Positions 19,120-30,570 of a DNA stretch of 37,239 bases are shown one piece after another. Positions within the stretch are counted from its first letter, which is position 1. Every line of letters starts with the position of its first letter. The notes beneath the pieces were generated by a model, which was given only the letters and a program-made list of their open reading frames with translations, did not search any database and had not been told where the DNA came from. The translations under genes and the position numbers were made by a program. Source of the DNA: a bacterium (GTDB taxonomy: Bacteria; Zhuqueibacterota; Zhuqueibacteria; Zhuqueibacterales; Geothermadaptataceae); contig JAJRYV010000082.1 of NCBI GenBank assembly GCA_024275575.1, forward strand, positions 1-37,239, given 5' to 3'.

Positions 19120-19833
19120 TTAGAATGATAAACGAAGAATTCTCTGATTCCCCCGATTCTCAACTCCAAGATTGATCGGGGTTTCTTTACAAAGGCGTTG
19201 CGATATTTGTAAAAAAACCAGACTGCTCGCAGGTAAAAATTCAGGTTGAAAAAAAGATTCCGTTTTGCCTGACCGGCGGGCTGAACGCATTTTTTCAGGA
19301 TAGGCGCTTATCGGGGCAACAAACTGTAATGCGGCTGGTTCCGTGGCGTGCTCTATTTTGATATTTATCGCAACAGCCTCTTCTTTGTTCTCTTTGTGTT
19401 GGTGCAGCAATTCCTGATGAAAAATCTCAAGTATGGTATAGATTAAAATTAAAAAATCCAGATTGGAAATTATTCCTCCAGTGAAAAAATCAATCTCAAA
19501 ATCTTCCAAAACCGTTTGAATACGGCGAAATTTAATTTGCAGAAGTTTTATGAGCGCCGCAATTTCCCTGTCGAGTTTTTGAGAATATTTATCATTCAAC
19601 GTCTGGATCAATGTGCTGCCAAAACCGCTTGTTTCCACAAGCCTGGCGCTAATTTCCCCAAGATCGGCGAGAAAATTCTCTCGCGGCAGGTTGCCTTTTG
19701 TCCGCGATGAAGCAGCGTAAATAAAGCCATAAGCCTGCAGTGCTGTAAGCGGATTGTTCAGCTCATGCAGAAGATATGGGAGGAGTTCACCCAGCATTTG
19801 AAAATAAGCTGCTTTTTTATCGGGTTTTTGCAT
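19120..19833 (-). CDS. Degenerate histidine-kinase-like protein
   Basis: About 237 residues. The N-terminus holds an H-box like that of sensor kinases: ELLPYLLHELNNPLTALQAY, with His25-Glu26 and the following NNP. In the rest I find no convincing N box, DxG or GxG ATP-lid motif; the expected N-box position (NLDFLILIYTILEIFHQEL) lacks the needed asparagine pattern, and the end (VENRGNQRILRLSF) resembles only the last strand of an HATPase domain. It may act as a phosphotransfer or dimerisation partner rather than a kinase. No membrane segment or sensor domain is seen. It is the last gene of the operon with PEGA and propeller proteins. The ATG at 19833 is used; a TTG lies two codons upstream. 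Confidence 0.7.
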   Translation of the reverse strand: MQKPDKKAAYFQMLGELLPYLLHELNNPLTALQAYGFIYAASSRTKGNLPRENFLADLGEISARLVETSGFGSTLIQTLNDKYSQKLDREIAALIKLLQIKFRRIQTVLEDFEIDFFTGGIISNLDFLILIYTILEIFHQELLHQHKENKEEAVAINIKIEHATEPAALQFVAPISAYPEKMRSARRSGKTESFFQPEFLPASSLVFLQISQRLCKETPINLGVENRGNQRILRLSF

Positions 19834-19862
19834 TGGCAAATAAAAAAAGTTGGTTGAGTGAT

Positions 19863-20687
19863 TTAATGATCTGAATTGCTCTTAACGAAGAAATACAAGC
19901 TGAATCCGAAGCTGACTTGCAAAGCGCCAAAAGCGACGATTGAAAGCCGGTCATACTGTTCGGCTTTATTGAATAATTCATCCATCTTTTCCGGGTCGAC
20001 TTCACGGTTGTAATCGTGATAAAATTTATCGGCGCGTTTCTTTAACCAGACCGCACCCACACCGGAGGCCAGGGTCAGCGCAGTGGATAAATACGTCATT
20101 TTTTTACGCCGGCTCATTTTTGTTTGCAATTTTTTCTGCAGAAGATCCTGTTCGATCCAATAATTATCATCGGCTTCGAGCACGACTTTCATCAAATGAT
20201 TGCCCATGGAGCGGCAATCGACAACCTGAGAAAAATAGCCGTCTTTCTCCAGAACCAGGCGGACACTCTCCGACTCATCATATTCCAAAACGAGCGGTGT
20301 TTCACCACAGTATTTTTCATTCTGATAAACATGTGCACCGTAGGGAATCGATTGGACATGATAAGTCAATCGGAATACGGGATTCAAGACCAGCGAATCC
20401 CCTGCATCCACGGTGACGGTTTCGCTCCAATCGGAGGCAAACCAACTCTGTTTGTTAAGACGCTGAACGGTAACTTTATGTTTTCCCACCGATACCGGAT
20501 GCGCAAAAATCGGCGTCGTGCCAACGCTATCATCATCGATGATGACCAGGCTGCCCATGATTTCACTCACGACCGTGATCGAAGGCTGTTTGCCTTCCTG
20601 CAGCGACTGTCCCCTCATTTCCGATGCCAGGAGCAATAAAACAATGCTAAGCCAGGCGCTGCAAGTCCACATCCTGTTGTATCTCAC
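19863..20687 (-). CDS. PEGA-domain envelope protein
   Basis: This 274-residue protein has a signal sequence (WLSIVLLLLASEMRG) and two PEGA-like repeats: one around SLVIIDDDSVGTTPIFAHPVSVGKHKVTV and one around YGAHVYQNEKYCGETPLVLEY. PEGA domains are small beta-folds in surface or periplasmic proteins. Two later hydrophobic segments (residues ~205-220 and ~250-270) around a charged coiled-coil-like stretch suggest C-terminal membrane anchoring. The GTG start overlaps the stop of the propeller gene by four bases (GTGA), so translation is probably coupled. Confidence 0.78.
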   Translation of the reverse strand: MRYNRMWTCSAWLSIVLLLLASEMRGQSLQEGKQPSITVVSEIMGSLVIIDDDSVGTTPIFAHPVSVGKHKVTVQRLNKQSWFASDWSETVTVDAGDSLVLNPVFRLTYHVQSIPYGAHVYQNEKYCGETPLVLEYDESESVRLVLEKDGYFSQVVDCRSMGNHLMKVVLEADDNYWIEQDLLQKKLQTKMSRRKKMTYLSTALTLASGVGAVWLKKRADKFYHDYNREVDPEKMDELFNKAEQYDRLSIVAFGALQVSFGFSLYFFVKSNSDH

Positions 20688-21829
20688 TTTTGGCTCCTTT
20701 CGCTTTCATGCTCAAAAACATAGATGTATTTATTCTCACTGCCGACCAACAGATAATCACCGTTGACGGTGGGATCGGTTCGCACCCTGCCCCTTAGTTC
20801 CGTTTGCCAGACAACATCTCCCGAGTATAGATCGAGGGCGTAAAGGTTGCGGTCGGCGCCGCCCAAATAGACCCGATCACCGACGATGATCGGGCTTGTA
20901 CCGACGGGGGTTTTGATCGAAAATTGCCAGTTGATGCTGCCGTCTGCAGTTTTAACCGAATAAATCAGGCCGCTTGAGGTGGCAACAATCAGGGTTTCAT
21001 TTTTAAGCGCCGGGGTTTTCCATATGCCGCCCTGAACTTTTTTCTGCCAAAGGATCTTCCCATTTTCAGGATTCAACGCTGTCAATTCATTAGCTACTGA
21101 GGTGATGAAAACAAGTTTGCCGTCAAAAACCGGTGCTGTGTAGATCGGGCCCTTCAAGCCGGTTTTCCAGGCTGTCTCCCCGGTCCGCCGTGTCAGGGCC
21201 AGAATTTGTCCGGCATCGGTGCCAAAAACCAGCAAATTATCGACGATTGCAGCCGTGGAGTGGGCAAAGCTGCCAATGCGCTTTCTCCACAAGCGCCTGC
21301 CGTTTGCCAGCGAATAACGTGAAGTGTGTTTGAACCGACTGACGACATAAACGGTCGAATCAGCGACCAGCGGTTTGGCGCCCTGCAATCCGGCGTTCAC
21401 TTTCCACAGATATTTCCCGCGAATGAGATCGTAGCAAAGCAGAGTTTTCTTTGCCAGTTTAAGCGCGATAATGAGGTAACGATCATTATAAAGGGTGGCA
21501 AATCCTTCAGAATTATTTTCCAGCTTCAATTTGCCGCGGATTTTCTTGCCTTTGATCAGTGAACCGTAAACTCTGCCGTTTTTCGTCACCATGACGACAG
21601 CATCGCCCAAGCTAAAGACATTTTCGATGGGCGCTGAGGTCAGCGAGAAGCGGTCGACGAGGCGCAGCGGTAAATCCGGCCCTTTATGATAATAATTAAA
21701 ATTGGGAATATCGAGATATTCCGGCGAACCAAAATCATCATCCGGTTTCGGCTTGACGACTTTAAATGAAACGCAGCCAACGATGAGAACACTCAATGCA
21801 ATGAGCGGCACGATATGATTCAGTTTCAT
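20684..21829 (-). CDS. PQQ-repeat beta-propeller lipoprotein (BamB-like)
   Basis: This 381-residue protein carries a lipobox (LIVGC, Cys19), so it is probably anchored to a membrane after export. From residue ~80 it has repeated PQQ-propeller blades with motifs such as GKYLWKVNAG, GRRLWRKRIG, GETAWKTGLKG, GKILWQKKVQG, GSINWQFSIKTPVG and GDVVWQTELRG. BamB, with this fold, helps assemble outer-membrane barrels; that is a reasonable analogy here, because the gene upstream encodes a protein with a C-terminal barrel. The ATG at 21829 has AAGGAA five bases upstream; an upstream ATG at 21847 lacks one. It lies 21 bases after the barrel fusion gene. Confidence 0.88.
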   Translation of the reverse strand: MKLNHIVPLIALSVLIVGCVSFKVVKPKPDDDFGSPEYLDIPNFNYYHKGPDLPLRLVDRFSLTSAPIENVFSLGDAVVMVTKNGRVYGSLIKGKKIRGKLKLENNSEGFATLYNDRYLIIALKLAKKTLLCYDLIRGKYLWKVNAGLQGAKPLVADSTVYVVSRFKHTSRYSLANGRRLWRKRIGSFAHSTAAIVDNLLVFGTDAGQILALTRRTGETAWKTGLKGPIYTAPVFDGKLVFITSVANELTALNPENGKILWQKKVQGGIWKTPALKNETLIVATSSGLIYSVKTADGSINWQFSIKTPVGTSPIIVGDRVYLGGADRNLYALDLYSGDVVWQTELRGRVRTDPTVNGDYLLVGSENKYIYVFEHESERSQK

Positions 21830-21850
21830 TAAATTCCTTATATTCAAAAT

Positions 21851-24754
21851 TTAAAAATCCCAGCCGAAAAAAAACTGTTTTCGCCACTTGTTGGGAAATG
21901 AGAAGGCGTCAGAACGTAATCCACCTTCCAGGTCATTGACGGCGAAGCGACGTCCGATATCATAGCGCAATACGAGAAAACCGCCGAGTCGCAAGCGCAT
22001 GCCGAAGCCGTAACTGCCGCGAATATTTTCCAGGGTATCATTCCAGGCATTGCCCGCATCGACAAAAAAAGCACCGCGAATAGAACTGAACCCCAGCCCA
22101 CCGAAGGGAAAAGAGACGGAGAGCCGGTCGATGAACGGCACACGTAATTCCTGGCTAACGAGAAAGAGTTTATGCCCCCAGATCGTCCAGCGTGGGTAGA
22201 GGCGTAAATCCCAACTACCGCCCATAAAAAAATCGAGTGCTTCCTTGCCCTGATTCATCGCAGCCCACAAGCGCACAGCGTAGGCGACACGATTTGAGAG
22301 GCGCTGATATTTGCGGTAATCTGCCATGATGGTATAAAAATTTACATTCGAATCACGGATATCAACCGTATTTCCCAAGGTGAAGGAAAAGCGTTCACCA
22401 TCAACAGGGCCGCTGGCTCCCCAGAGAGAATTGTCTTTAATCCAACTGACAAAATTTGAAACGAGTAAACCATTTATCTCTTCCGTGCCGAAACGGGTTT
22501 TATCCGATTGACGAATATTGATTGAAGCCTCGGCGCGTTGAAAAATCGAAAGCGGATAACTTAGCGAAGCGAAACCGCCATAACGCCGTTCATAGAAAAA
22601 ACTTTCCGAGCGGTTGTAGTAATTTCCAGCGAAATGATACGCACCATAAGCGTAGTTTAAACGATGACTGAGATCGATTTTCGTCACTGCGACATTAAAA
22701 CTCTTGAGCATCTCCGAGCTGGTTGTGGCGGTGTTATAGATGAGAAAATAGTATTTATGGTTGCCCAACATATCGCTCATGGCCAATTGCGCCCCGCCCG
22801 AAGTGCCGAATAGCGGGTCCTGCGTCACCTGGCTTTGGGCGATATCCAGCGAGAATTTTTTGCGATAAGCCAGATTGGATACCGCAGCGACAGCGGATAT
22901 TTTAGTCGGCTGCCAGCGGGTGGCAACTTTATGCAGCCGGTCGGCTTGCTGAACACCGGCTTTTTGCACCAGCGCATTGACATCATCAATTTTGCGCAGT
23001 TGAAATGAAAACCTTTCAAAGGCGGTAAAAATCAGAGCATTGTCTTCCATCCATTCCGGATCGAACGCTCCGGTGATAAAATTGGTGATTTTCTGTAATC
23101 GATGATCGCAATCGACAGCGCTGGGGAAAGGTGCATGCGGTAATTTGAAAACATCACCATTAGACAAGTTGGCCGCCAGTTTCAGGCTTTCCTGCGGGAT
23201 TTGCAGCAACCAGATATTGAATGCTCCGTCGCGGTCAGAGGTAAAAGCGATGGACATGCCATCGGGCGACCAAACCGGTGTCAGATCATTGGCAGGGCTG
23301 CTGGTGATGTAAGAGATATCGCCGTTTTGAGCATTATAGATAAAAATATCATACAATCCGTCCTCCCCTTCCGGAGCACGATCGGAACTGAAAGCAATGT
23401 ATTTGCCATCCGGCGACCAGGCCGGGTCGCGGTCATCATAAAAATCATTGGTCAGTTTTTGCAAATCCTGCGAGGCGAAATCATAGGTGTAAAGATCACT
23501 TTTGCCGCTGAAATCGACGGCGGTAAAAACGATGCTCTCATCGTCTGGATGCCAGTTTGGTGAAAGAATAGTGACGAGGTTGTCGAACTGTAACCGTTTT
23601 TGGATTTTGCCGTCATCGAGACGGCATTTGTAAAGCGCGTCCTTGCCATAGCTTTTGGCGACGAAAATCAACTCCCCATGCCGGTTCACATCGATTTTAC
23701 TTTTCAATAAATTAAACGCTTCGAACAGGCTCGAACGCTCACCTTTTACCACGACTTGCGGGTTTTTATCTTTCTGTTGCGCATCGGCATCGATGGAATA
23801 GATATTGGAATAACCGATGCGATTGGAAATAAAAACAATTTTTTCCTGATCGCCATATTTGCAGTAGGTTGGTTTTGTATTGATGCCTCTTGTCGTCAAT
23901 CGTTCGGTAACCATGCCGGGCATATCATTTTCATCGATGATGGGATATTTCGTTTTTTTGAGCGAATAGAGCCACAGCTCATCAAATTTCTTATAATCGA
24001 CGCCGAGGGTATATTTCATCACGTCGGAGAAACTTTCTCCCATCCAGGTATTCTGCATCAATTGTAATAACTTCTCTTCCCCGTATTTTTCGCTGATGAA
24101 ACGGCAGACAGCCTGCCCTTCTTTGTACATCAGAAAGGTGCCGAATATACGATACATTCGCGAAACCGGCACGATATATCCGCTGATTACCGCATCCCGC
24201 AAAAACATTTCGGCTTCGGTATCCCATCCCTCGGACCAATATTCCGCGATCCCCTCGGTAAACCACAACGGCAAACCCGGGTAGTTGGTTTTCCTGTGGT
24301 CTTTCAGAGTCCGGTTGACCAGGCTGTGGGTAAAAACATGCACCAGTTCATGATTGATGACATGTTTAAATTTATAGAGTGAGCCATCGGCCGGGATGAC
24401 GACACGGCCTTTCAGAAATTCGAAAAAACCACCCACACCGTGCGGGATGAGATTGGGAATGGTATTGGTTTGCTGAAAATGCAAATGGTTGGAATAAAAA
24501 ATCAAAGGAATGCGGCGGGGCACATTTTGATTGTATTTGACCATCAGCCGGGTGTAAGCAGCTTCAGCATAGGAAGCGCCGACTTCAGCCAGGTCCTTCA
24601 TCTCGGGATAATAATAGATATCAAAATGTTCGGTTTCTAAAATATGCCAATCAAAATTATCGTACTGGACTTTATTACGTCCAAAATAGTATTGTGCATT
24701 CAGATTGATCGTCATGCCAACGATCAGTAAAAACAACAAGAAAAAACGCCTCAT
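21851..24754 (-). CDS. Zinc peptidase / TolB-like propeller / outer-membrane barrel fusion protein
   Basis: This protein of about 967 residues has a signal peptide (RRFFLLFLLIVGMTINLNA). Part 1 (30-290) is a gluzincin-type peptidase: HELVH at 135-139 and LWFTEGIAEYWSEG with Glu168 as likely third ligand, as in peptidase-MA-like proteases. Part 2 (~300-560) has TolB/PD40 propeller blades, including PNWHPDDESIVFTA, PAWSPDGKYIAFSSDR and PVWSPDGMSIAFTSDR. Part 3 (~640-967) looks like an Omp85/surface-antigen-type barrel; its end has GLGFSSIRGAFFVDAGNAW and GFGMRLRLGGFLVLRYDIG. The order suggests a surface or periplasmic protease tethered to the outer membrane. The ATG at 24754 has GAGG seven bases upstream. 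It heads the operon with the propeller, PEGA and kinase-like genes. Confidence 0.88.
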   Translation of the reverse strand: MRRFFLLFLLIVGMTINLNAQYYFGRNKVQYDNFDWHILETEHFDIYYYPEMKDLAEVGASYAEAAYTRLMVKYNQNVPRRIPLIFYSNHLHFQQTNTIPNLIPHGVGGFFEFLKGRVVIPADGSLYKFKHVINHELVHVFTHSLVNRTLKDHRKTNYPGLPLWFTEGIAEYWSEGWDTEAEMFLRDAVISGYIVPVSRMYRIFGTFLMYKEGQAVCRFISEKYGEEKLLQLMQNTWMGESFSDVMKYTLGVDYKKFDELWLYSLKKTKYPIIDENDMPGMVTERLTTRGINTKPTYCKYGDQEKIVFISNRIGYSNIYSIDADAQQKDKNPQVVVKGERSSLFEAFNLLKSKIDVNRHGELIFVAKSYGKDALYKCRLDDGKIQKRLQFDNLVTILSPNWHPDDESIVFTAVDFSGKSDLYTYDFASQDLQKLTNDFYDDRDPAWSPDGKYIAFSSDRAPEGEDGLYDIFIYNAQNGDISYITSSPANDLTPVWSPDGMSIAFTSDRDGAFNIWLLQIPQESLKLAANLSNGDVFKLPHAPFPSAVDCDHRLQKITNFITGAFDPEWMEDNALIFTAFERFSFQLRKIDDVNALVQKAGVQQADRLHKVATRWQPTKISAVAAVSNLAYRKKFSLDIAQSQVTQDPLFGTSGGAQLAMSDMLGNHKYYFLIYNTATTSSEMLKSFNVAVTKIDLSHRLNYAYGAYHFAGNYYNRSESFFYERRYGGFASLSYPLSIFQRAEASINIRQSDKTRFGTEEINGLLVSNFVSWIKDNSLWGASGPVDGERFSFTLGNTVDIRDSNVNFYTIMADYRKYQRLSNRVAYAVRLWAAMNQGKEALDFFMGGSWDLRLYPRWTIWGHKLFLVSQELRVPFIDRLSVSFPFGGLGFSSIRGAFFVDAGNAWNDTLENIRGSYGFGMRLRLGGFLVLRYDIGRRFAVNDLEGGLRSDAFSFPNKWRKQFFFGWDF

Positions 24755-24951
24755 CGATTGCCTCGATTTTCTGTGTGCAACGAATTTGATGTTTAAAGAA
24801 TTTAAAAACAATTAAGCCGCGATCAAGTTAATTAATCATTGCTTACGTCGATAAATTCAGTATGATTTTCTTTGCCGGCGGGTGCTTATAATAACGGAAT
24901 TATGTTCATTACGCTCTTCAAATTTTTGAATCGACTCACAATTTTTAAAAC

Positions 24952-24986: not shown

Positions 24987-25013
24987 AATTAATCCAGATT
25001 TGCAATTAAGTTG

Positions 25014-26156
25014 ATGTTGAAAAAAACCTCTGCACAGACATTGATCGAAACGAATAAGGAGTTGACACAACACTTATTCGAACTGCACAACATCTTCAAA
25101 GTTTCGGCAGAGCTCACATCAATTATCGATGTACCAAAGCTAAAGTACACTTACCTTGTAAACGTCATTGGAATTTTGCGGGCCAGTGGTGCGATCCTGT
25201 TATTGCCGACGCATGCACGATCAAAAACACTGAAAGTCGCCCTCCACAGGGGGATTGAAAAATCGATAACAGATGCAATAAGTATACCCATTCTGCCGAT
25301 CTTGCAGAATTCACTGCAAGACGCCGGCAGCACTTATAATATCCTCGATATTGATAATAAAAATTCCCGCTTGATTCTGCAGGATTCTTATGAAACCCTG
25401 AAAAAAGCAGGGATAAAACTCGTTGCCCCACTCACCCATCTGGACCAGTTTCTCGGTATCATGCTTGTTAGTGAATCGATCAATCCAAACGGATTCAGGC
25501 CAACTGATTTTGATCTGTTTTCGATTTTGAACAATTTTTTCTCAACGGTTCATTCGCATGCGACACTCATCCATAAATTAAAAAATCTGAGCTCAACAGA
25601 CTACCTGACCACTCTTCTGAACAGACGCGCTTTCAACAGCGCCCTCGCAACCGAGATTTCACGCTCCAGCCGACACGGCCTGCAATTCAGCCTGGCATTA
25701 ATCGATATCGATCACTTCAAGCAGTACAATGACAACAACGGCCATCTCGCCGGCGATGCGCTGTTAAAAATATTCGCCCGGATTCTGCGGCAGTGTTCAC
25801 GCTCGAGTGATATCATCGCCCGGTTTGGCGGTGAAGAATTTGCCATCATTCTCATTGGAGTGGACAATGAGGGAACGCTGCTGTTTTGCAAACGATTGCT
25901 GAAAACGATTAAAAGCTATGCTTTCGAAAATGCTGAAGAGCAACCGCTGGGCTTTGTCAGCGCCAGTATCGGAACCGCCTGTTTCCCCGGAAATGCAAAA
26001 TCCGAAAAAGAACTCATCACTTGCGCGGACCTGGCGATGTATCAGGCAAAAAATGCAGGAAGAAATTGTGTCAGGCAATTCAAAAATGAAATTGATAACG
26101 AATCAGGCAAAGCGTTCAGCCGGTTTAAACGCCCCATTCGAAGAAAGGTTAAATGA
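25014..26156 (+). CDS. GAF-GGDEF diguanylate cyclase
   Basis: This 380-residue protein should make cyclic di-GMP from two GTP. Residues ~25-180 form a GAF-like sensor region (LHNIFKVSAELTSIID... LGIMLVSE). The GGDEF domain starts at STDYLTTLLNRRAF, with ALIDIDHFK for metal binding, active-site GGEEF (272-276), and an inhibitory I-site RSSD (263-266) exactly five residues upstream, implying product feedback. No membrane segment is present, so it is cytosolic. The ATG at 25014 is chosen; a TTG at 25011 precedes it and no strong ribosome site is seen. Its stop overlaps the start of the processing protease. Confidence 0.93.
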   Translation: MLKKTSAQTLIETNKELTQHLFELHNIFKVSAELTSIIDVPKLKYTYLVNVIGILRASGAILLLPTHARSKTLKVALHRGIEKSITDAISIPILPILQNSLQDAGSTYNILDIDNKNSRLILQDSYETLKKAGIKLVAPLTHLDQFLGIMLVSESINPNGFRPTDFDLFSILNNFFSTVHSHATLIHKLKNLSSTDYLTTLLNRRAFNSALATEISRSSRHGLQFSLALIDIDHFKQYNDNNGHLAGDALLKIFARILRQCSRSSDIIARFGGEEFAIILIGVDNEGTLLFCKRLLKTIKSYAFENAEEQPLGFVSASIGTACFPGNAKSEKELITCADLAMYQAKNAGRNCVRQFKNEIDNESGKAFSRFKRPIRRKVK

Positions 26157-27784
26157 TGAAAAAACTCCTGCTGACTTCTACGATCACGATCGCAGTCATC
26201 CTGACACTTGCGAGCTTTACCGGAGGGCGGCATACACAAAATGCGATGGCATTCGGCAACTCCATCAATGAAAAAATGGAAATTTTCAAACTCATCATGG
26301 AAACCGTACAACAACGCTATGTCGAAGAACATTCGGCAGAAGAGCTATTAGAATTTGCCATCGACGGCATGCTGGCCAAGCTCGATCCGCATACGGCATA
26401 TATGCCGGTGGACAATTTCAAACGCTGGAATAAAAATTTTGAAGGATTTCAGGGGATCGGCATTCATTATATTTTTATCGATGAAAAACCGACGATCACC
26501 GGATTTGTCAACGATTCACCAGCCCGCAATACCGGTCTGCTCGTGGGCGACAGGATAACCCGAATCGATGGCCGGGCAACCAGCGGATTGAGCCGATATG
26601 AAATTTCAAATCTGATCACCAATTCCCCTTATGCTAAGCTGAGAGTGAAGGTTTGGCGGCCCTCTTCCGAGCAGGAAATGGATTTCAACATCCGCCGGAC
26701 ACACCTGAATTTGAACAGCGTTTTAATAAAGACGATGGTTTCCCCTGATGTCGGTTATATTTTGCTCGATCGCTTTTGCAGCAATACGGCTTTTGAATTG
26801 GACTATGCTCTGGAATCACTTGCGCGCAAGGGCATGCGAGGGCTGATTCTCGATCTGCGCGATAACGGCGGCGGTTACCTTTCATCTGCGGTGGAAGTCG
26901 CCGGCCGGTTTTTACCTGCAGGCAAACTCATCGTCTATACGCTTGGAAAACATCCGGATTCGTATCAGGAATACCGGGCCTCACGCACTTCGGATTTTGC
27001 CAGTCTGCCTCTCACTATTTTAGTAAATCACGGTACTGCGAGCGCTGCGGAAATCGTTGCCGGCGCATTGCAGGATTGGGACCGCGCATTGATCGTCGGC
27101 GAAACCAGTTTCGGCAAGGGCCTGGTGCAGAGCCAGTACCGCTTCCGCGATGGCTCTGCCCTGCTCGTGACCACTGCCAAATATTACACACCCTTAGGCC
27201 GGCTGATACAGCGAAATTATTACAATCGCACCAAAGATGAATATTATTACGATGCTTATGATGAATACGCGCGGCAGCCCGAACACAACAAACTGGGGCA
27301 TAAAACATTCCTGACACCCCGCGGGCGAAAAGTCTATGGCGGTGGTGGAATTACGCCGGATTTATGGGTACGCAACACCGATGCTGGTCTTTCCGATGAT
27401 TTACTTGCACTTTACCTCAATCATAACGAGCAGGTTCTCGAATTTGTGCTGAACCTCGTGCAAAAACGGCGGCAAATTGCGGATTTGCCCATTGAAAAAA
27501 TAAACAGACAAATTATAATTTACGAAAATGAATTACAGGAATTCCGCCGACTCGCCGGCAGTCTTGGGGCACGTTTTTCCGCAGATTTCTTCAGAAAAAA
27601 CAGGGATGACATTTGTTTTTTACTGCGCCGTGAAATCGGTTATCTGACACACGGGCCCTTGGGGCGTTTCACCGTCGCTATGGTTCGTGACCACCAATTG
27701 AATTCTGCAATCAGCAGCCTCGACCAGGCCGATGATCTTGTGCAGTATCAACTCTCCCATGTAGCTAAAGAAAAAACGGAATAG
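26153..27784 (+). CDS. ctpA: C-terminal processing peptidase (S41 family, PDZ domain)
   Basis: This 543-residue exported serine protease of the CtpA/Prc type cleaves periplasmic proteins near their C-termini. It has a signal/anchor segment (LLLTSTITIAVILTLASF), then the N-terminal helical region and a PDZ domain (about 95-180, GFQGIGIHY...SPARNTGLLVGDRI). The catalytic dyad is Ser297 in GTASAAE and Lys322 in GKGLVQ, with Gln326; spacings of 25 and 4 fit the family. After the protease core there is a C-terminal helical extension of ~120 residues. Translation is coupled to the GGDEF gene: ATGATG overlaps its TGA, and AAAGG lies five bases upstream. Confidence 0.93.
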   Translation: MMKKLLLTSTITIAVILTLASFTGGRHTQNAMAFGNSINEKMEIFKLIMETVQQRYVEEHSAEELLEFAIDGMLAKLDPHTAYMPVDNFKRWNKNFEGFQGIGIHYIFIDEKPTITGFVNDSPARNTGLLVGDRITRIDGRATSGLSRYEISNLITNSPYAKLRVKVWRPSSEQEMDFNIRRTHLNLNSVLIKTMVSPDVGYILLDRFCSNTAFELDYALESLARKGMRGLILDLRDNGGGYLSSAVEVAGRFLPAGKLIVYTLGKHPDSYQEYRASRTSDFASLPLTILVNHGTASAAEIVAGALQDWDRALIVGETSFGKGLVQSQYRFRDGSALLVTTAKYYTPLGRLIQRNYYNRTKDEYYYDAYDEYARQPEHNKLGHKTFLTPRGRKVYGGGGITPDLWVRNTDAGLSDDLLALYLNHNEQVLEFVLNLVQKRRQIADLPIEKINRQIIIYENELQEFRRLAGSLGARFSADFFRKNRDDICFLLRREIGYLTHGPLGRFTVAMVRDHQLNSAISSLDQADDLVQYQLSHVAKEKTE

Positions 27785-28095: not shown

Positions 28096-30432
28096 TTATT
28101 TCAAAAGCAGTAATTTTTGCGTTTCAACCCGGCGATTCCAGCTTAACCTCAGATAATAGATGCCGCTAGGGGTATCCGATCCAGCCTGCCAGGTGAGCTC
28201 GTAATTCCCGGCAGCCCGTTTTTCGTTGATCAAAGTTGCTGTTTTTTGCCCGAGTGTATTGTAAATCACGGCATTGACAAAACCCGCAGCCGGCAGTGCA
28301 AAGCGAATATGAGTCGCCGGATTGAAAGGGTTGGGATAATTGGGAGAAACCGCGAAAGACTGCGGCAGCATCATTTTATCTTCAGCTTGCCCCACAGATC
28401 GCTTGCCGCTATAAGCGAGATAATCACTCTGCTTCACCCAAACAGCATATCCCCGACTCGGCGCCGAAATCCACACCCGGCCGTCAGAATAGACATAGGT
28501 CGTTTCACTGTTATCAAAGGCATTGACCAGCGTCGTATTGGCCCAATTGGAAAATCCTGAGGGCGAACTATCGACCCAGAGTCCTTTGGTCGAGGAATCA
28601 TGATTATTGATCGCCACGATGGCGCCGTCACGCGTGCCATTGCCTTGCCGCCGCGCAACGTACACATTGTAAGTATCGCCGGAGGGCCAGGGGTTGCCGA
28701 TTTCACTGAGAACAGTAAGGGATCCGCCGAGATAGTTTTTACGCACGTGAATCAACTTTTTGATATCGGTTTGCAGGCTGGCCGGCGCTGTTATCTGATA
28801 GCTGTTATCATGTGCATCGACCTGGGTTACGCCATAATAATGAGGATAAAAAATACACGGACGGCCCTCGTGGGTTAAAATATAGGCGTAGGCCATTTTA
28901 AAATCTTTGGTCAGCCATTTGTCACGTTCTTTTCCCGTATCGTGGTTATCGATAAAAGTCACGATCGATGTACCAGGCAAGCCGTTGCCGCTATTGTTGC
29001 GCACCATGCCGGCATGATTGAGCCAGGCCATATTAAAACTGCTCTGATCGCCGTTGGCCATATCTTTAAGAGTATTCTTGAGCGGAAAATCGAAGCCGTC
29101 GACATCGGCGCCACCGCTTGCCACATTGTTGACCCAGTCGCGGATGCGATAATCTGCACCCCAGTACTCCCCGACGATGAATCGTTGCGAGCCACCGAGT
29201 GTCGGCAGATTATTTACCCAGTCAGCGACGAACGACTCCTGAAATCCACGCACGAAATCGAGCCGAAATCCGTCGAAGCTAATCTGATTGGCCAGCCAGT
29301 AACCCCAATCTTTCAGGCGCGTTTGCACCGCTGTGCTGAATGTATTGAGATCATTGCCAAAAAATTTCGTATTGGTGATAATCTCATCAGAACCGGGAAA
29401 TCCGAGCCAGTCGTTATTGTCGACCGGATGAAAATCGGTGTAATTCCAGGTATAGTTTTGTTCGCCCGTTCCCGTATGGGTCACATAAGCGATGCCGGTA
29501 TTTGTATGCGCTTCCAGCGTGGAGCTTGCAAGGTTGCTGCCATTATGCCAAATGGCGCCGGGATAATAACTGTTGGTCTGATCGGCCCAGGCCCACTGCC
29601 AGCCGTTGCTGGTGTCTTCACGGCGGGCTATCAGACGAATTTCGATGTCATGCACCGAGCTCAGACTGATTTTGTATTCATCGATAGCTGAGGCATCCTC
29701 GATATGTCCGCGGACTGTGCGCCCGGAGCCGGGGAAAGCATTCCAGCTTCCACCACCATCATTCGGTTCACTCTCCCAGGTATCCGTACCGTTGGGTCCG
29801 ATACCGGTCCAATCGATCATCACATCGTAACCACGCTCGGTTTTGCTGGCGCTCCAGTTCAGAGTTGCACCAACAATCTGAATGTAATAATCACCGGCGG
29901 CAGCATTGGGGATGAGCCAGAGGATTTCATTGGTCGGATAAGACTGGTATTGCGTGCCGTTACGGTAAGCTTTATCGAAGACGTACTGTTTGACGGCGGG
30001 ATTGGATTCGTCTTCATCGCTGCTGGTATAGATATGATTGAGCACAACATCGGCGTAGACCTCAATTTTCGGACTGCTATGCATGCTGGAAATCATGTTT
30101 TCAAGTTCGGAACGGCTGCCAAAACGGGTTTCGCTAGTCCCTTTCTGGTTATAATTCCCCAGATCGTAATGATCGAAAATGCCGTAGCCCATATCGTAAA
30201 TACCAAAGTTCCCCTTGCATGGAACAGGCACCCAGATACCGGTAATACCGGCATTTTTGAGTTCCCCCGATTTGGCTGCGAGGCTATCCCACCACGTACC
30301 GTTTCCGGCAGTGTCATCCACCGGAACATCCCAGTAAAACGCCTGCATCATAGCGTCATTCTGAGCTAGAAGCGTCGGGCTGATCACCATCGACAGGGCG
30401 AGAAATAGCCAATATCGTTTTCTCATTTTCAT
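28096..30432 (-). CDS. Secreted GH13 alpha-amylase with C-terminal sorting domain
   Basis: This protein of about 778 residues hydrolyses alpha-1,4-glucans. Signal peptide: KMRKRYWLFLALSMVISPTLLA. GH13 regions are present in order: DVVLNH (128-133), the nucleophile in GFRLDFVRG (Asp392), the acid/base in IVGEYWG (Glu422) and FIDNHD (Asp498). Between domain A strand 3 and the second half lies an unusual insertion at about 150-330 with beta-rich, PPC-like features (WLIPNAAAGDYYIQI, WESEPNDGG). The last ~85 residues, from SPNYPNPFNPATHIRFALP to VETQKLLLLK, form a FlgD-like sorting domain, implying export across the outer membrane. The ATG at 30432 has GGAGG four bases upstream. An operator-like palindrome lies about 140 bases upstream. 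Confidence 0.95.
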   Translation of the reverse strand: MKMRKRYWLFLALSMVISPTLLAQNDAMMQAFYWDVPVDDTAGNGTWWDSLAAKSGELKNAGITGIWVPVPCKGNFGIYDMGYGIFDHYDLGNYNQKGTSETRFGSRSELENMISSMHSSPKIEVYADVVLNHIYTSSDEDESNPAVKQYVFDKAYRNGTQYQSYPTNEILWLIPNAAAGDYYIQIVGATLNWSASKTERGYDVMIDWTGIGPNGTDTWESEPNDGGGSWNAFPGSGRTVRGHIEDASAIDEYKISLSSVHDIEIRLIARREDTSNGWQWAWADQTNSYYPGAIWHNGSNLASSTLEAHTNTGIAYVTHTGTGEQNYTWNYTDFHPVDNNDWLGFPGSDEIITNTKFFGNDLNTFSTAVQTRLKDWGYWLANQISFDGFRLDFVRGFQESFVADWVNNLPTLGGSQRFIVGEYWGADYRIRDWVNNVASGGADVDGFDFPLKNTLKDMANGDQSSFNMAWLNHAGMVRNNSGNGLPGTSIVTFIDNHDTGKERDKWLTKDFKMAYAYILTHEGRPCIFYPHYYGVTQVDAHDNSYQITAPASLQTDIKKLIHVRKNYLGGSLTVLSEIGNPWPSGDTYNVYVARRQGNGTRDGAIVAINNHDSSTKGLWVDSSPSGFSNWANTTLVNAFDNSETTYVYSDGRVWISAPSRGYAVWVKQSDYLAYSGKRSVGQAEDKMMLPQSFAVSPNYPNPFNPATHIRFALPAAGFVNAVIYNTLGQKTATLINEKRAAGNYELTWQAGSDTPSGIYYLRLSWNRRVETQKLLLLK

Positions 30433-30570
30433 GAGTCCTCCATAAAAAAGTGAAAAAAAACGGGAAATTAAATAAATAAGAACAGCGCAAAGAGAAAAAG
30501 CATGAAACCATTTCCAGAAAAAATTCCTGCTCAATAGTTTTAGAAAATGGTTTATTTAGTGCAGATCAAG

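Follow-up and report, generated by a model that had tools for sequence, protein, structure and literature searches.

Among the Omp85 proteins, the WD40-Omp85 subfamily is the kind closest to the protein described here. It was defined by Heinz and Lithgow in 2014 by the presence of a TolB-like propeller, an arrangement "reminiscent of" a BamA-BamB fusion (PMC4104836), and the WD40-like Omp85 proteins were still described as not well characterised by Hanson et al. in 2024. As in our protein, the Omp85 barrel of the subfamily is preceded by a TolB-like propeller without POTRA domains; in this comparison, made by published description, the text (PMC4104836) mentions the propeller only, with neither a peptidase nor partner genes. 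The 'Metallo' Omp85 group of the same paper was ruled out as this family, because the domain that defines it, PF00149, is another one. No study of a peptidase-propeller-barrel architecture was found in the open-access literature.

Two other systems offer partial parallels. PlpD is an Omp85 protein with an N-terminal enzyme, and this enzyme domain has been shown to be periplasmic (PMC11116518). The protein studied here likewise has an N-terminal enzyme on an Omp85 barrel, whereas PlpD carries a lipase-like enzyme and one POTRA domain, and lacks the propeller. BepA, a periplasmic zinc peptidase, degrades outer-membrane proteins stalled on BAM (PMC13067283). The likeness to BepA, that of a periplasmic zinc peptidase tied to outer-membrane protein assembly, would be a functional analogy only; BepA is a separate M48 protein, in contrast to the Peptidase_MA fusion described below.

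The source bacterium belongs to the candidate KSB1 group, and the three-domain gene lies at 21851-24754 on the minus strand of the window (the whole stretch of DNA analysed, 37,239 nucleotides). The open reading frame spans 21851-24811 (minus strand), and its most plausible start is the ATG at 24754, from which all residue numbers are counted, giving a protein of 967 residues. Based on Pfam, AlphaFold and Foldseek, the same chain consists of a signal peptide (residues 1-21), a Peptidase_MA zinc peptidase domain (residues ~22-285, with H135, E136, H139 and E167), a TolB-like propeller (residues ~286-600, with about six blades as counted by sequence-motif inspection) and a 16-strand Omp85 barrel (residues 634-967 plus the stop codon; 21851-22855, minus strand). 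Three Pfam domains scored over their curated cut-offs: Peptidase_MA_2 (PF13485; 46.9 bits, cut-off 32.4), PD40 (PF07676; 89.9 bits, cut-off 20.9) and Omp85 (PF01103; 32.2 bits, cut-off 24). The NCBIfam models gave partial TolB-like and BamA/TamA-like matches below the equivalog cut-offs. The AlphaFold model, built from an input of 54 sequences, had a pLDDT of 82 and a pTM of 0.80; in it the peptidase domain covers residues 36-283. The first-pass annotation had proposed a fusion of peptidase, propeller and barrel in one protein; every domain was borne out by Pfam together with AlphaFold and Foldseek, and the reading frame, its coordinates and the length of 967 residues from ATG 24754 proved correct. 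The three-domain architecture and the gene set are well supported.

In the AlphaFold model, 16 long C-terminal strands occupy residues 634-965. The barrel bears the L6-type motif GGSWDLRxYPRW and the motif FVDAGNAW, and its sequence ends with FFFGWDF, leaving an aromatic residue at the C-terminus. In the Foldseek search with the whole model, the propeller matched TolB and the barrel matched TamA and BamA, the match to 8us4 (TamA barrel only) showing a TMt of 0.69; hits among viral proteins in a further Foldseek search were largely to generic propellers and were set aside. The C-terminal ~330 residues are thus predicted to fold as an Omp85 barrel, and the barrel assignment survived one of the two refutation tests set beforehand. 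The 16-strand barrel, the L6-type motif, the C-terminal aromatic residue and the Foldseek matches relate the protein to BamA and TamA. Unlike these proteins, which carry POTRA domains, the 967-residue protein gave no Pfam match to a POTRA domain, its N-terminal part being filled by the peptidase and the propeller; Pfam, AlphaFold and Foldseek agree that the TolB-type propeller stands directly before the barrel. The genome also encodes its own BamA-like protein, a separate protein of 803 residues (G000:C77) that is the best Omp85 match of the genome and has POTRA domains by sequence reading, not by profile.

The HELVH zinc-binding motif (residues 135-139; 24338-24352, minus strand) was read directly from the sequence; the motif PLWFTEGIAEY (residues 162-172; 24239-24271, minus strand) contains E167. 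We propose E167, 28 residues past H139, as the third zinc ligand; this spacing is presumably the same as in clostridial collagenase G, and we take it as a lead. Seven residues, H135, E136, H139, W164, E167, G168 and A170, were invariant in all 37 orthologues of the class, a set gathered by whole-protein similarity without use of the motif and hence unbiased for the zinc site. H135, E136 and H139 were also invariant among 54 named relatives, which agrees with the first set even though these were collected by peptidase motifs and are biased. When the peptidase domain was modelled alone, its best Foldseek matches were the peptidase domains of collagenases and M1 aminopeptidases, all of them weak, the best fold match being collagenase T (TMq 0.54, E 3e-3). 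The M9 collagenases and M1 aminopeptidases (gluzincins) thus resemble the domain in fold and in the HExxH motif with a distal Glu, but the match is weak and the domain has none of their accessory domains. A search of the peptidase profile against PDB sequences gave nothing significant, and Peptidase_M48 (PF01435) was absent from the 967-residue protein in the Pfam search; the two M48 proteins of the genome sit elsewhere, apart from the locus. The zinc peptidase appears to be intact.

Among the 37 class orthologues, mean conservation was 0.649 for the peptidase, 0.619 for the barrel, 0.451 for the propeller and 0.754 for the L6 region, and the L6 region and the first barrel strands match or exceed the peptidase average. 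Since the zinc site and the functional elements of the barrel are both conserved, selection has kept both. This pattern would fit an active enzyme joined to an Omp85 barrel that is functional and not just an anchor.

Two genes follow on the same strand. The first encodes a BamB-like PQQ propeller lipoprotein (20684-21829, minus strand; PF13360, 177 bits). Its probable start codon, the ATG at 21829, is preceded by AAGGA and comes almost directly after the stop codon of the barrel gene. Its lipobox is LIVGC with Cys25 (ORF numbering), and this lipid-bearing Cys is kept in 33 of 33 class homologues. In the propeller type and the conserved lipid Cys the protein resembles BamB; it differs in scoring below the equivalog cut-off of the BamB model (TIGR03300; 128.7 bits, cut-off 285.2) and in being linked to the barrel gene, not to bamA. 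The second gene (19863-20687, minus strand) begins with a GTG that overlaps the stop codon of the PQQ gene in the sequence GTGA, and it encodes a protein with a signal peptide and two PEGA domains (PF08308, 58.4 bits). A hydropathy scan and the alignment indicated hydrophobic stretches in its C-terminal part, a possible membrane anchor. Both proteins had been predicted by the first-pass annotation and were confirmed, including the GTGA overlap. It had also counted as a member of the set a kinase-like protein, which did not hold: the 239-residue product of the fourth gene (19120-19839, minus strand) has only a weak HisKA box (PF00512; 21.7 bits, below the cut-off of 26.9), and the gene was seen next to the set only in a genome of the same genus as the window (G001, 44%), so it was dropped as a partner. 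A scan for promoters and terminators gave results not far from the shuffle expectation.

On the other side lie divergent neighbours (25011-27784, plus strand), one gene for a GGDEF protein and one for a C-terminal-processing protease of the S41/PDZ kind. Several KSB1 genomes likewise have both genes, or just that of the protease, beside the barrel gene (L038, L039, L040, L045, L048, L051, L056 and L057). Further along, an 812-residue reading frame (28096-30534, minus strand) had no Pfam match at 1e-5.

Gene adjacency was examined for the best 80 of 493 confirmed named relatives, 79 of which could be scored and 71 of which had a same-strand gene downstream. Within 3 kb downstream, a PQQ homologue was present in at least 64 of these 71 testable loci and a PEGA homologue in at least 41, both counts being lower bounds as the ORF picker missed some genes found by profile searches. 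The gaps at L042 and L039 were such artefacts of longest-ORF picking, PQQ (G009) and PEGA (G003) genes being found directly downstream. Upstream genes of Ignavibacteria, for a polyprenyl synthase, a PTS enzyme I and a phosphoglucose isomerase-like protein, were rejected as partners because they are metabolic and lineage-limited.

Co-occurrence was then scored by PQQ and PEGA profile searches of 14 genomes with a window-type gene and 10 without. Of the 14 genomes carrying the barrel gene, 13 have a strong PQQ orthologue (above ~170 bits); of the 10 lacking it, one does. This sole exception, G052, has its PQQ orthologue beginning at base 5 of a contig, and the barrel gene may lie beyond the contig edge. 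The Fisher p value was 7e-5 with G052 and 1e-5 without, though the genomes are related and neither value is a clean probability. In two within-genus contrasts (G021 versus G016, and G036 versus G045), PQQ and PEGA were lost together with the barrel gene. In one genome (G078) the barrel gene occurs but the PQQ gene does not, and in two of Ignavibacteria type (G067 and G068) the PQQ and PEGA genes lie apart from the barrel gene, yet still as a pair. The second refutation test set beforehand, on the conservation of the partner genes, was thus survived through two of the three partners, PQQ and PEGA, which keep their position and are co-lost with the barrel gene; the kinase-like gene failed it.

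A family match was detected in all 60 relatives and in all 82 of the phylum's genomes that were searched, some genomes having the longer paralogue only. The named relatives belong to KSB1, Calditrichota, Ignavibacteriota, Kryptonia, Neomarinimicrobiota and MAGs of Rhodothermales (Rhodothermota). Genomes of these groups contain one window-type copy (~950 residues) and usually one longer paralogue (~1050 residues). In a maximum-likelihood tree of 45 proteins the two types are split by a 100/100 branch, and the window-type branch broadly tracks phylum lines, a pattern that fits an old duplication followed by largely vertical descent. The window-type gene has been lost in some lineages, indicating that it is not universally needed. 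HExxH is kept in all longer paralogues examined, and within KSB1 these often adjoin a gene for a GWxTD-domain protein. Two contigs of the source genome, G000:C118 (L069:11279-14380) and G000:C54 (L070:8665-11826), each carry a longer paralogue of ~1040 residues with HELTH and a GWxTD-domain gene directly after it; this pairing recurs across the class, but none of the other phyla sampled showed it. A third, divergent paralogue with HEYTH (G000:C15; L071:8409-11417) is followed by a DUF5683 gene, and upstream of it is encoded a protein bearing a type 9 secretion sorting tail. The gene is also present on a contig (L153) with the label SAR202 (Chloroflexota), where it clusters with a sequence from Neomarinimicrobiota with 100/100 support; this is probably a mislabelled or mis-binned MAG. 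The 1996-residue frame at L155 was rejected as a fusion, since the first ~1000 residues, rich in arginine, seem to result from a chance frame in high-GC DNA and were not taken as a domain.

The role of outer-membrane protease or of assembly or secretion device proposed by the first-pass annotation seems reasonable. Of the readings it covers, we tentatively favour a periplasm-facing machine that assembles some of the outer-membrane or surface proteins or controls their quality; we infer the location of the protein, its proteolytic activity, its clients and the insertion of proteins by the barrel itself. Because the bacterium also has a BamA-like protein of its own, the 967-residue protein is a second, specialised Omp85 protein. 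It would be a paralogue of insertases of the BamA/TamA type, carrying a TolB-like propeller and a seemingly intact zinc peptidase in place of their POTRA domains. Its barrel would span the outer membrane; the propeller and the peptidase, periplasmic to judge from the barrel topology, would hang below the barrel opening. The PQQ lipoprotein, BamB-like and presumably in the outer membrane, and the PEGA protein would probably serve as docking or positioning factors. Clients would be captured by the propellers at the barrel gate and cut by the peptidase when they stall or need processing, the outcome being assembly, maturation or disposal of some outer-membrane or surface proteins. In E. coli, BAM and the protease BepA are separate proteins; a single chain would here unite their functions.

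Several points count against this assembly reading. The insertases known to date use POTRA domains, none of which was detected here. The losses of the window-type gene in some lineages also count against it. Propellers of the PQQ and TolB kinds are widespread and promiscuous, which makes the label 'BamB-like' weak evidence of function, and the PQQ protein falls short of the BamB cut-off. PlpD is an example of an Omp85 barrel serving an enzyme without a known role in protein assembly. The protein might be built in the same way, its barrel being an anchor or a platform, lateral or lipid-contacting, that assembles nothing, while the enzyme processes certain envelope proteins or scavenges peptides. 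In agreement with such an anchored protease, no domain is more conserved than the peptidase, its fold resembles collagenase and M1 aminopeptidase domains, and the enzyme of PlpD, itself a POTRA-bearing Omp85 protein, stays in the periplasm (PMC11116518). The L6 region and the first strands are, however, conserved beyond what is expected of a passive anchor, and the conserved BamB-like lipoprotein suggests work related to assembly; we therefore rank the anchored protease as a possible but rather unlikely second to assembly and quality control.

Omp85 and TpsB barrels can translocate proteins, and the barrel could be imagined to export the peptidase-propeller part or a partner as a surface protease, in a type V-like manner; the type 9 sorting-tail protein beside a paralogue of the same genome is in line with such a view. 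This secretion reading is the least likely of all, because strand 1 of the even-stranded barrel comes after the N-terminal domains, which thus begin on the periplasmic side, the neighbourhoods examined contained no conserved gene for an exported partner, and the equivalent idea has been overturned for PlpD (PMC11116518). Hardly more probable is that the neighbours are merely co-transcribed and that the protein acts alone, or has a Tol-Pal-like envelope role through its propeller, which is closest to TolB. The PQQ-PEGA pair away from the barrel gene in one Ignavibacteria clade (L134 and L145) points in this direction, but the adjacency spans several phyla, the genes are co-lost within genera, and the separated genomes still keep the pair.

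On the boldest reading the protein would be an insertase with a built-in protease, a single chain that inserts outer-membrane proteins as well as cutting them. Such a machine might go back to the ancestor of much of the FCB group, an early duplication having given two parallel machines with their own partner sets (PQQ and PEGA for one, GWxTD proteins within KSB1 for the other); we regard this reading as speculative and on the whole doubtful. Both in 2014 and in 2024 the WD40-Omp85 proteins were flagged as conserved yet uncharacterised. The present analysis shows that the form found in KSB1, Ignavibacteriota, Calditrichota and their relatives has an apparently intact zinc peptidase together with a lipoprotein and a PEGA partner that are conserved and co-lost, and that two such proteins exist in the same genomes, turning an anonymous subfamily into a specific three-part system. 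Through relatives of the cultured genera Melioribacter, Ignavibacterium and Caldithrix, the system is open to experiment. The findings suggest that in these phyla the quality control of outer-membrane proteins may be built straight into a barrel protein.
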